48,590 bases of DNA from an uncultured Lachnospiraceae bacterium (GTDB lineage Bacteria > Bacillota > Clostridia > Lachnospirales > Lachnospiraceae): NCBI GenBank assembly GCA_902796355.1, contig CADBOU010000125.1, positions 1 to 48,590 on the forward strand. Reading direction: 5' to 3'. Shown in pieces: positions 31,851 through 35,527 of the stretch (position 1 is the first letter of the stretch; each line of letters opens with the position of its first letter). The position numbers were made by a program, and so were the translations under genes. The notes below the pieces were generated by a model. The model searched no databases and had not been told where the DNA came from. It saw only the letters and a program-made list of their open reading frames with translations.

Positions 31851-32978
31851 TTAAAACCTCCTTAAATTATACTCAGAATCTTGATCAGAGCCTTTTTTAT
31901 CATTAGTATGCAGGTAGCGGTATAACAGCCACCCTATTTTAAAGATGAAAGCATCTCTAAAGTTTCTCAGATCCAGTTTTGCAACACGTCTGATACGGTT
32001 TAACCGGTAATTAACCGAGTTGCGGTGAAAGAACAGTTCTCTCGCGGTTTTAGCGGCATTCATTGAATGATCAAGAAAGGAAAACGCTATCCTTAAATCC
32101 TCGCCGCTCATCTGTTCATAAAACGTATCTCCAGCCATAATATCCAACAGTCTGTGACAGACCCGTTTGGGCAGATACACAATGATCTGTTCAAGCAAAA
32201 GATCGAGGTATCGCTGAAGCTGTCCTTCATATCCGAAGATCTTACTGATCCTGACCGCTTCCCGTGCTTCCCGGTAGGCAACTTCCAGATAGTCAAGGCT
32301 GCTGATCTGTGCACTTTTACCGATGATGGCGCCTTCCCCTGCCACAGAGCGGGTCTGTTCAATCAGCTTTTGTTCAAGTTCATCGATACCGCTGTTTTCT
32401 TCTTCGCGGTTTTCTTCCAGTTTATGAACGATAACGGGTACCGTACGGTCGTACAGAAACACGTCATCCGCAATGCGCATCCGCAATCTCTCAAGGAGCC
32501 TTTCTGCCGTCACCATCCCGTATCCTTCAGGAATGTCTACTGTGTAGACAACATACGGCATATCAATTTCAATATCGAATTCGGAGGCGCAGCCACACAT
32601 ATCAAGCCGCGTCATACGGCCTGCTGTCAACCTGCAGTAAAAATCATCCCGGTTAAGGTCACCGCGCTCTGCCTGCAGCAACGCCGGAAAAACAACTTCA
32701 AACTCCTCGCCGACGGCGGGTGCCTGAGATGTGCCGAAAGCAGCAATGATATACACAGGTTCAGTCTGGTCTGTGATTCTGGAAATATATCGATCCGCTG
32801 TGATGTCTCTCGGTCTTTCAGATGCCGCAAACTCCTGCAGCGTACTTGCCAGAACCCCCTTAGGTGCCGAACCGGCTGTAATGATAACTCTCCCCTCTTG
32901 ATCCGCCACCACCAAAAACGTTTTTGTCCGTCGGTATATGGCATCAGCGGTCTGTTGAATCACTTGCTTTGATACCAT
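31851..32978 (-). CDS. PucR/CdaR-type transcriptional regulator
   Basis: A 375-residue regulator with an N-terminal sugar-diacid-recognition-like domain (TADAIYRRTKTFLVVADQEG) and a C-terminal PucR helix-turn-helix (NAAKTARELFFHRNSVNYRL, about residues 315-335). CdaR relatives respond to sugar acids; the ligand here is unknown. The start is uncertain. The ATG at 32978 lacks a clear ribosome site, while a TTG at 32993, with GGCGAG 6 nt upstream, would add five residues. The gene is 2 nt before ftsE, an unusual neighbour for this regulator type. Promoter and repeated sequences upstream suggest self-control. Confidence 0.87.
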   Translation of the reverse strand: MVSKQVIQQTADAIYRRTKTFLVVADQEGRVIITAGSAPKGVLASTLQEFAASERPRDITADRYISRITDQTEPVYIIAAFGTSQAPAVGEEFEVVFPALLQAERGDLNRDDFYCRLTAGRMTRLDMCGCASEFDIEIDMPYVVYTVDIPEGYGMVTAERLLERLRMRIADDVFLYDRTVPVIVHKLEENREEENSGIDELEQKLIEQTRSVAGEGAIIGKSAQISSLDYLEVAYREAREAVRISKIFGYEGQLQRYLDLLLEQIIVYLPKRVCHRLLDIMAGDTFYEQMSGEDLRIAFSFLDHSMNAAKTARELFFHRNSVNYRLNRIRRVAKLDLRNFRDAFIFKIGWLLYRYLHTNDKKGSDQDSEYNLRRF

Positions 32979-32987
32979 AACAATACC

Positions 32988-33044
32988 ATGCAAGCTTGAC
33001 TCGCCACATATTGTAACATATTTGTAACAAAATGCAAGCTTGAC
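32988..33044. repeat. Paired 13-bp repeats upstream of the pucR-type gene
   Basis: ATGCAAGCTTGAC occurs identically at 32988-33000 and 33032-33044, 44 bp apart. Between them TTGTAACA occurs twice, 11 bp apart (33011-33018 and 33022-33029). The array covers the leader and a second possible promoter, so it is a candidate operator region. Confidence 0.6.
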
Positions 33045-33076
33045 CTTCATCCTTATTTTTACAAATACTCCGATTT

Positions 33077-33134: not shown

Positions 33135-33938
33135 CTAGTCAACCAAGCTTCGAAGCTCTTCCTGTTCAACCTGGAGCTGCTCAATCTGCGCTTCCAGCCG
33201 GGCAACCTGGTGTTCGATTTCCTCCTGTTCTTCCGGTAATGCCTGCTCAGACAGATGCGGATCATATACCATTTTCTTAAACAACAGCACTGCCGCCAGG
33301 ATAAAAGCCGCAGCATACAAAACTTTGCGCGCAGCTCCGGCCGCATGGCGTCTGCTCCTTGCACTGCTCCTCTCTGAAAAATCCCGTATCTGGGCAAATG
33401 CGGCCTCCGCCTTATCATACTGTCCGATTGGACGCATACCTGCTCCCATACACCGGTCAATAAAATGCTCTGCCCGCCGTCTGAGCGCAGTGTCCATCAC
33501 TTCTCCTGCTTCTTCGTTGACCGCAAACATATACTGGCACAACCTTGCAAAGCCATAGATCTCTGACTGCTCTGCGTCCATTGCGGCATAATCCGCAGGT
33601 GCAAAATAGCGCATGACAGACCTGCTCTGGACCTTGCGGGCCGCAGCATAATTACTTTCATCATTAAAATCCAAAAGCTTAACCCGATCCTGCCGGTCGA
33701 TCAAAAGCATATGGGGGCTGACGATTCCGCGAAGCCGCTGCGTATCACAGTCGCTTCTGAGGCGCATCAGCACGAGCGCCTGAGCCAGTATCCCCATCAG
33801 GCGGGTTGTCTCGACCGGTGCACAAGAGCTGATCCAGTCATTGAATCGCATACCCTCCACGTGCTCCCTGACTTCATGGCTTTTTTCGTCGCGAAACAAA
33901 AATGTGACGGTTGTGTACTTTTTTATTTCTCTTTGCAT
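33135..33938 (-). CDS. Membrane-anchored pseudokinase-like protein
   Basis: A 267-residue protein whose first 190 residues follow the C-lobe of Ser/Thr kinases but without catalytic parts. REHVEGM resembles the hinge, VKLLDFNDES (86-95) aligns with the DFG strand but has DFN, MRYFAPADY (109-117) aligns with the APE motif, and SEIYGFARL (125-133) with the SDIYSLG helix. The HRD catalytic loop is replaced by VSPHM, and the ATP-binding N-lobe (P-loop and Lys) is missing. A single membrane helix (205-223) and a Glu/Gln-rich coiled coil (234-264) follow. The ATG has GAGGAGG upstream. I cannot name the family; a signalling or scaffold role is inference. Confidence 0.75.
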   Translation of the reverse strand: MQREIKKYTTVTFLFRDEKSHEVREHVEGMRFNDWISSCAPVETTRLMGILAQALVLMRLRSDCDTQRLRGIVSPHMLLIDRQDRVKLLDFNDESNYAAARKVQSRSVMRYFAPADYAAMDAEQSEIYGFARLCQYMFAVNEEAGEVMDTALRRRAEHFIDRCMGAGMRPIGQYDKAEAAFAQIRDFSERSSARSRRHAAGAARKVLYAAAFILAAVLLFKKMVYDPHLSEQALPEEQEEIEHQVARLEAQIEQLQVEQEELRSLVD

Positions 33939-33986: not shown

Positions 33987-34025
33987 TAGCGGATTTCGCA
34001 GGAAAAGTCCATGCGAAATCCGCTA
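33987..34025. terminator. Hairpin with 14-bp perfect arms after the phosphofructokinase gene
   Basis: TAGCGGATTTCGCA (33987-34000) and TGCGAAATCCGCTA (34012-34025) are exact complements with an 11-nt loop. On the minus strand it is followed by TTGTTTCG, a weak T tract. It may terminate the phosphofructokinase transcript, or act as a regulatory structure in the leader of the pseudokinase gene. Confidence 0.6.
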
Positions 34026-34030
34026 TAATT

Positions 34031-34080
34031 GATCGACACTTTTCGACAGTTTTCGACAGTCTTCGACGGTTTTCGACAGT
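34031..34080. repeat. Tandem 10-bp repeat array
   Basis: Five copies of a 10-bp unit, consensus TTTCGACAGT, run in perfect register: three exact copies (34041-34050, 34051-34060, 34071-34080) and two variants (34031-34040 and 34061-34070). A degenerate 9-bp copy follows at 34081-34089. The period equals one helical turn. It lies between the phosphofructokinase stop and the pseudokinase start. Confidence 0.85.
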
Positions 34081-34107: not shown

Positions 34108-35337
34108 TCAATCGATGAACAGATGTCTCGGAATACCGCCCACCATGATGGGTGAAAGGTCTCCCTGAATAAGCGGCTCAACATATGTGCGGAATTCATC
34201 CGTCACATAGGTGCCTTCTTTGTTGATCCATTTCCGCGGTACCAGGCGTTCTTCATTGGCAATCTTATGCACATCCTTAACGGCGGTGTGGCACTGATAC
34301 GGATCATCCGACTCGCGCTCAAAGACGACCATCACGCCGCTGGATCCCTCGTCAGCTGCTTTGACAGAAGCGCCGCCGATCTGAGCCGCCTCCAGGATAT
34401 CAATACGGGAGGCCAGATGAGAAGCTGCTCTCTGCAGGGTGCTCAACTCAATTGAGCGGGTCTTGCAGCCGATCTTCTCCGCCAGATACTGGCACAGATA
34501 GTTGGCTGTGCCGGTCAGCTGTTTATGGCCAAATGCATCGATAAATCCTGTTCCTGCGCCGCCTTCGCAGACATATTTGCCGTCCGCGGTCCGAACACCC
34601 TCAGACACCGCCACGACAGTATACCCCTTCTGATCCAAAGCCTTCTTAGCTTTCTTAAGGAACAGATCCATATCAAACGGAAGCTCCGGAAGATAAATCG
34701 CATCGACACCTTTGCAGTCCTCTCCTTCGGCCAGACAAGCCGCCCCTGTCAGCCAACCGGCGTCGCGTCCCATGACTTCAACGACAGTGGCAATACCGTG
34801 AGCATATTCCTGGCTTGCCGCATCGCGGATGATTTCTTTGATCGATGTACCGATATACTTGGCTGCGCTGCCGTATCCCGGTGTGTGATCTGTCAGTGCC
34901 AGATCATTATCGATTGTCTTGGGGCATCCGACAAAATTAATCTGACTGCCGGTGAGCAAAGCATAATCTGACAGCTTCTTGATCGTATCCATCGAATCAT
35001 TGCCGCCAATATAGATAAAGGCTTCAATATCAAGATCATCAAGCAATTTGAAAATCTCATCATACACAGCCTTGTCCTCATGAATCTCAGGCAGTTTATA
35101 GCGGCAGGAACCAAGAAAAGCCGCCGGTGTTCTCTTAAGGATCTCACTGTCCAGATCATTTCTGATATACTTGGACAGATCGACATAATCGCCTTTCATC
35201 AAACCCTGGATACCGTGGCGCATGCCATACACCTTCTTGGCTCCACGCTCGATAGCAGTCTGATAAACACCTGCCAGACTGGAGTTGATCGCTGCTGTCG
35301 GTCCGCCGGACTGTCCGACAATCACATTTCTCTTCAT
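34108..35337 (-). CDS. pfp: 6-phosphofructokinase, predicted PPi-dependent
   Basis: A 409-residue glycolytic enzyme that phosphorylates fructose-6-phosphate. Family motifs include GGPTAAINSSL near the N-terminus (about residues 11-21), YIGGNDSMDT near 108-117, and PKTIDNDLALTDHTPG near 139. The Asp in GGNDS and the Lys in PKTIDND correspond to residues that favour PPi over ATP, so I predict PPi as phosphoryl donor; the first Asp of the usual GGDD is Asn. The ATG has AAGGAGG upstream. It is probably a single gene, ending close to the 10-bp repeat array. Confidence 0.92.
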   Translation of the reverse strand: MKRNVIVGQSGGPTAAINSSLAGVYQTAIERGAKKVYGMRHGIQGLMKGDYVDLSKYIRNDLDSEILKRTPAAFLGSCRYKLPEIHEDKAVYDEIFKLLDDLDIEAFIYIGGNDSMDTIKKLSDYALLTGSQINFVGCPKTIDNDLALTDHTPGYGSAAKYIGTSIKEIIRDAASQEYAHGIATVVEVMGRDAGWLTGAACLAEGEDCKGVDAIYLPELPFDMDLFLKKAKKALDQKGYTVVAVSEGVRTADGKYVCEGGAGTGFIDAFGHKQLTGTANYLCQYLAEKIGCKTRSIELSTLQRAASHLASRIDILEAAQIGGASVKAADEGSSGVMVVFERESDDPYQCHTAVKDVHKIANEERLVPRKWINKEGTYVTDEFRTYVEPLIQGDLSPIMVGGIPRHLFID

Positions 35338-35453: not shown

Positions 35454-35527
35454 CGTGCGCGAGAAGATTCGAACTCCCGACCTTCTGGTCCGTAGCCAGA
35501 CGCTCTATCCAGCTGAGCTACGCGCAC
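35454..35527 (-). tRNA. tRNA-Arg (anticodon ACG)
   Basis: A 74-nt cloverleaf on the minus strand with a perfect acceptor stem GTGCGCG/CGCGCAC, D-arm TAGCTCAGCTGGATAGAGC, anticodon stem-loop TCTGG-CTACGGA-CCAGA giving ACG, a normal TTCGAAT T-loop and discriminator G. The CCA end is not encoded. Confidence 0.95.

Follow-up and report, generated by a model that had tools for sequence, protein, structure and literature searches.

The window analysed here, 48,590 nucleotides of contig CADBOU010000125.1 from an uncultured Lachnospiraceae bacterium (GenBank assembly GCA_902796355.1), encodes a 267-amino-acid protein that is, by sequence comparison, a shortened member of a pfp-linked clade of Lachnospiraceae pseudokinases without an N-lobe. 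Pseudokinases usually are whole kinase folds with dead active sites. The clade described here is a bacterial pseudokinase family that has dispensed with the N-lobe, and it was previously unlabelled. The window protein is probably a membrane-anchored, kinase-derived adaptor that exposes its C-lobe as a protein-docking surface.

The gene and its surroundings

A first-pass annotation, made from the DNA letters, described a membrane pseudokinase lacking an N-lobe, and this description is supported by fold, profile and phylogeny. The landmarks it pointed out, DFN (residues 90–92), FAPADY (112–117) and SEIYGF (125–130), are confirmed in the translation of the open reading frame, as are the hydrophobic membrane helix and the Leu/Ile-zipper C-terminus that follow the C-lobe (Table 1).

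Table 1. Features of the pseudokinase locus, in window coordinates
Feature	Position	Strand	Basis
N-lobe-less membrane pseudokinase gene, 267 aa	33135..33938	-	ORF and homologs in genus and family
Predicted beta4-beta5 hairpin, residues 6-31, sole N-lobe remnant	33846..33923	-	AF2 strands E6-16, E19-31
Predicted kinase C-lobe, residues 32-190	33369..33845	-	AF2 helices, fold matches, profile match
Degenerate catalytic loop, residues 69-81, LRGIVSPHMLLID	33696..33734	-	H, R, D, K, N all replaced
DFNDESN, residues 90-96, DFG-derived motif	33651..33671	-	Family alignment
Predicted single transmembrane helix, residues 202-220	33279..33335	-	Hydropathy and charge bias
Predicted extracytoplasmic coiled coil, residues 235-266	33141..33236	-	Heptad d positions L/I/L/L/L; AF2 H235-266, pLDDT ~90
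pfp (phosphofructokinase family), upstream gene	34108..35337	-	Family-wide neighbour
PucR/CdaR-like regulator, next gene in the window's genus	31851..33050	-	
Strong hairpin in pfp-pseudokinase gap	33987..34026	-	-31.1 kcal/mol, z=-7.5; alignment

The pseudokinase gene lies downstream of pfp on the same strand, after a gap of 169 bp, and is followed in the window by the PucR/CdaR-like regulator and then by ftsE-ftsX-pcsB-ctpA (ftsE, ftsX, ctpA and pfp are what we take these neighbours to be). Homologs are found syntenically after pfp in all four genomes of the genus, with identities of 50, 37 and 32%. One of these genomes (G003) keeps the order pfp, pseudokinase, regulator, and in another (G001) the contig stops within the apparent start of the regulator gene. 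Within the genus pfp is 86–92% identical, as against 32–50% for the pseudokinase. Thus the gene is retained, yet it changes fast.

The tail that follows the membrane helix has 43–48 residues throughout the genus, and the tails of G001 and G003 are similar in length to the coiled-coil region of the window protein, where the zipper pattern is seen. Hydropathy and charge bias around the membrane helix are the same in nearly all relatives. Since the positive charge is N-terminal of the helix, the C-lobe is predicted to be cytoplasmic and the tail to lie outside.

Conservation of the hairpin in the gap between pfp and the pseudokinase gene extends through the genus; in G001 its base changes are paired. 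The hairpin is followed by a T-rich stretch. No Rfam family matches the gap. Perhaps the hairpin is a terminator or attenuator between the two genes. Ahead of it, at 34033–34079 on the minus strand, are five tandem TGTCGA-like repeats with 10-bp spacing, which resemble the Spo0A box (TGTCGAA). The array is unique within the window, and its counterparts in the congeners retain about three copies. Three of the four genus genomes, that of the window included, encode a Spo0A C-terminal domain. Upstream of pfp there is a tRNA gene (35454–35527, minus strand).

Evidence for a kinase fold

Scanned singly against Pfam and NCBIfam, the window protein gives coiled-coil matches only and no significant Pfam kinase match, and its best hit in a PDB sequence search is the structure of an S. 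aureus PASTA kinase at E=0.016. As these single-protein matches are insignificant or weak, it is the family profile and the structural model that support the kinase assignment. The profile matches the C-lobes of StkP, PknB and PknA (best E=1.8e-9) from chain residue 81–103 onward, which is the beta4-beta5 region. The Pfam Pkinase model is matched at some level in 30 of 31 family members; on one relative the match covers model positions 66–231 of 263 only (E=5.5e-6).

The AlphaFold2 model of the window protein, from an alignment of 31 sequences from which congener sequences obtained by genome search were left out, has a pLDDT of 84. It predicts the beta hairpin, the C-lobe helices and beta7-beta8, followed by a long membrane-crossing helix and the coiled coil. 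When the model was re-aligned to PDB chains, 1000 of 1000 gave a Z of at least 5; among the matches listed, all are protein kinases, with Z up to 11.8 over about 150 residues. The structural alignments start at model residue 15–25, which corresponds to kinase beta4 (e.g. RIPK1 residue 63 onward), and the C-lobe topology after the hinge (alpha-E, beta7-beta8, alpha-F onward) is present. Structure prediction and comparison with kinases, which the earlier annotation had proposed as a check, thus give a kinase C-lobe and not a fold unrelated to kinases, and the kinase reading stands. The predicted model and the profile together establish the fold.

Loss of the N-lobe and of the catalytic residues

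The window protein lacks beta1, beta2, beta3 and helix C and keeps the beta4-beta5 hairpin. The initial claim that the ATP-binding lobe is absent therefore needs to be narrowed to beta1-beta3 and helix C, as the hairpin survives. The open frame of the window gene has 277 codons compared with 267 for the reading frame as called, i.e. only 10 extra codons at the 5′ end, and in many relatives a stop codon is found 0–10 codons upstream of the domain, in several of them at a distance of 0–5 codons. The loss is therefore real, as there is no room for an N-lobe. It should be pointed out that a wrong start codon, by which the lobe might have been missed, is ruled out by the upstream stops.

The HRD loop had also been called absent. 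This was not borne out: the loop exists in degenerate form, and LRGIVSPHMLLID aligns with HRDLKPxNIL. The counterpart of HRDxKPxN is RGIVSPHM in the window protein and YQYVNPYS in most relatives. The positions of the HRD Asp, the catalytic Lys and the HRDxxxxN Asn are thus I72, S74 and M77 in the former and Y, N and S in the latter. Essentially none of the 40 family members has kept the H, D, K or N of this catalytic loop. Other positions are well kept: G29, P75 and F112 are invariant across the family (n=40), with Q135 and C163 nearly so. D90, the DFG Asp, is retained in 37 of the 40 and N96 in 35, and a family-specific S-N comes after the Asp.

The missing N-lobe and the dead catalytic motifs are evident in the conceptual translations themselves. 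The Gly loop and the beta3 Lys, N-lobe features of active kinases, are not found in the window protein. With no ATP-binding Lys, Gly loop, HRD Asp, catalytic Lys or metal-binding Asn, phosphorylation is impossible, so that catalysis is excluded, judging from the residues present. Binding of ATP is very unlikely. The conserved D90 and N96 could provide residual ligand binding.

A clade of N-lobe-less proteins in Lachnospiraceae

A direct scan of genome contigs with the window protein alone found no relative. The link to the family was reached through the gene next to pfp in another genome, G008, where the protein encoded after pfp, 549 aa long, combines the same truncated kinase with a membrane helix and TPR-like helices. 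At E<=1e-22 the family is found in 38 of 397 sampled Lachnospiraceae genomes, or roughly one in ten. Among the named members are Dorea, Faecalicatena, Mordavella, Merdimonas, Extibacter and Claveliimonas, all of them Lachnospiraceae. The N-lobe-less clade spans dozens of genera, and its motifs are strongly conserved.

In the phylogenetic tree the 40 N-lobe-less proteins form one clade with 100/100 support, apart from a small outgroup of full kinases. The branch leading to the window's genus is long and is joined to others that are long as well. A profile built without this genus recovers its four proteins at 1e-23 to 1e-26. In the reverse direction, a profile of the four genus proteins scores the long family at best at 9.5e-25, compared with 1.7e-8 for the best full kinase. 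The genus profile ranks nearly all members above every full kinase, with the exception of the divergent G175, which falls among the kinases. The full kinase L157 matches the family profile as well as the genus does, and it too has an Ig-like gene downstream, which suggests the ancestral arrangement. Other full Ser/Thr kinases (L005, L006, L007 and L089) are fused to or followed by a P-loop ATPase that is CpaE/TadZ-like; at L089 this kinase-ATPase locus adjoins apparent Tad-pilus genes.

Both pfp and ftsEX had been proposed as conserved neighbours. The former is a family-wide neighbour: for 19 of 30 long forms it lies upstream on the same strand, no more than 1.5 kb away. The latter is adjacent in the window's own genus only.

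Long forms, an Ig-like partner and repeated shortening

Most relatives are longer and consist of C-lobe, membrane helix and TPR domain. A full model of one long relative predicts these parts, with the TPR domain as a superhelix (pLDDT 86); its best fold matches are TPR proteins and PknG, the latter the top Foldseek match. The product of the gene downstream of most long forms is membrane-anchored, having bacterial Ig-like domains and, at its C-terminus, a membrane segment; this gene usually overlaps the pseudokinase stop codon by 16 nt. Beyond the Ig-like gene, L083, L087, L125, L130 and other loci have a second pfp paralog, which is divergent (~45% identity) and oppositely oriented, and a GT2 glycosyltransferase and an S8-type protease recur there as well.

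The Ig-like gene is directly downstream in 24 of 30 long forms as against none of seven short forms (Fisher p=1.7e-4, with loci treated as independent, a value that is optimistic as the loci are related by descent). Thus, besides forming a single clade, the family displays a linkage between the Ig-like gene and the TPR domain. The window protein is a short form, with a coiled coil in place of the TPR outer domain; no Ig partner was found in the four genus genomes, which are 70–88% complete.

Short forms are found in three places of the tree: the window's genus, a group of five (G182, G138, G247, G065 and G387), and G400. The tree implies three or more shortening events, one of them in the window's genus. 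The sister of G400, G091, is long yet already has no Ig gene, and this suggests that the Ig partner is lost first. In the G400/G091 lineage two genes for PcsB-like coiled-coil NlpC/P60 hydrolases lie directly 3′ of the pseudokinase (L131:7720–10528 and L142:6605–9413).

Comparison with known kinases and pseudokinases

By profile, the closest solved sequence relatives are the transmembrane PASTA/Hanks-type Ser/Thr kinases StkP, PknB and PrkC. They share with the window protein the C-lobe fold, a cytoplasmic kinase part and one membrane helix. They differ in that the window protein has no beta1-beta3, helix C, catalytic residues or PASTA repeats. PknG is catalytically active and has an N-lobe. 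Its kinase fold is followed by TPR, as in the long relatives, except that in the latter a membrane helix sits between the two.

A kinase C-lobe by itself is known as a protein-docking module from the KIND domain of Spir (PMC3415841). By analogy, the KIND domain (Spir, PTPN13, KNDC1) shares with the window protein a C-lobe without ATP lobe. Unlike the eukaryotic KIND, the window protein keeps the beta4-beta5 hairpin and is membrane-anchored, and the likeness is presumably convergent. The Pfam KIND model matches neither the window protein nor any of the 31 members scanned, and Spir KIND is not among the 50 fold matches listed for the model.

No Pfam or NCBIfam model describes the family. In open-licence papers no account of a bacterial kinase domain without an N-lobe was found. 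A 2025 review of bacterial pseudokinases treats ActPs, GLW, CP1, DYD, DLHK and EssB, which have degraded catalytic motifs and in many cases a C-terminal membrane helix; a term search of the review gives no Lachnospiraceae, no TPR and nothing on N-lobe-less families (PMC12599244).

Alternative explanations

The position of the window gene ahead of PucR-ftsE-ftsX-pcsB-ctpA raises the question of whether the protein regulates peptidoglycan hydrolysis at division, with C-lobe and coiled coil acting on the neighbouring FtsEX-PcsB. A separate lineage (G400, G091), which has also lost the Ig partner, carries the two PcsB-type NlpC/P60 genes directly 3′ of its pseudokinase, and this fits such a role. 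However, the PucR-ftsEX arrangement is conserved across the order without the pseudokinase gene, most family members adjoin neither ftsEX nor pcsB, and neighbourhood alone is weak evidence. This regulatory role is unlikely, if the best placed of the alternatives.

Somewhat less probable still is that the gene is a decaying, functionless remnant of a kinase gene. The rapid divergence, the loss of TPR domain and Ig partner, and the small genomes of the genus (assemblies of 1.4–1.6 Mb) are what decay could produce, and the fast divergence of the genus on its long branch may reflect relaxed constraint. Opposed to this are the open frame, which is intact in all four genus genomes (in one it is ended by the contig edge), the 42 invariant positions of their alignment, and the wide distribution of the clade with its conserved motifs.

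The first-pass annotation drew a likeness to EssB/YukC of type VII secretion, and the protein might accordingly be the hub of such a system or of a TraF-like type IV system. The order of parts is alike, i.e. a cytoplasmic pseudokinase, one membrane helix and a helical outer domain (PMC9600267; PMC13037476), and YukC is a precedent for a membrane pseudokinase as an interaction hub (PMC9600267). The likeness holds, by analogy, for this order and for a likely scaffold role; the N-lobe and membership in a secretion system belong to EssB/YukC and TraF alone. EssB, YukC and TraF retain the N-terminal beta lobe (PMC13037476 for EssB and TraF; PMC9600267), which the window protein does not have. Neither YukC nor EssB is found in any of the four genus genomes, and Pfam YukC (PF10140) is listed for none of 31 members at E<=5 in scans where HMMER filters drop most weak matches. 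The annotation's remark that no secretion genes are near holds for the window gene, and none were recognised in the neighbourhoods of the relatives inspected. The absence of EssB from the 50 fold-search matches listed counts neither way. Altogether, a secretion hub is very improbable.

Finally, that the protein is half of a split kinase, onto which an N-lobe made elsewhere docks, is nearly refuted: the beta4-beta5 edge and hinge are retained, but no N-lobe gene is adjacent, and with catalytic Asp, Lys and Asn all replaced the assembly would still be inactive.

A proposed docking function and its significance

The preferred reading is that of a membrane-anchored adaptor. Since the C-lobe positions are conserved and catalysis is lost, the protein is likely to dock other proteins at the membrane, and the family most likely serves as a docking platform and not as an enzyme. 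A scaffold function is the most plausible one. The ancestor may have been a Lachnospiraceae transmembrane Ser/Thr kinase that carried an extracytoplasmic TPR domain and was encoded together with an Ig-like surface protein. Beta1-beta3 and helix C would have been lost once, and the beta4-beta5 hairpin and C-lobe retained as a cytoplasmic docking surface, which the single membrane helix would connect to the cell exterior. The TPR domain of the long forms is the probable attachment site of the Ig-like protein. As the gene with the TPR domain overlaps the Ig-like gene, the pair is probably a transmembrane link from an envelope fibre to a cytoplasmic partner. In the window's genus, without Ig partner and TPR domain, a short coiled coil is left, and the protein probably anchors this same partner to the membrane as a dimer. 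Topology, dimerisation and docking function are the inferred parts of this picture.

As candidate cytoplasmic partners we consider the active kinases of the genome and the neighbouring FtsEX-PcsB machinery. The latter gains slight support from the PcsB-type hydrolases in G400/G091; the ftsEX adjacency is genus-specific.

In a bolder form, the family may be a bacterial counterpart of KIND: a membrane-anchored C-lobe that lost its ATP lobe once, became a pure docking module coupled to a TPR domain and an Ig-like protein, and was repeatedly reduced to a minimal anchored form. This we put forward tentatively, as somewhat short of probable. If true, the bacterial kinase C-lobe would be an independently selected interaction module, and a family without N-lobe a clean system for finding what C-lobes bind without catalysis. 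The joint loss of TPR domain and Ig partner leads to a testable prediction, namely that common gut bacteria possess a pair of proteins for signalling or anchoring across the membrane.
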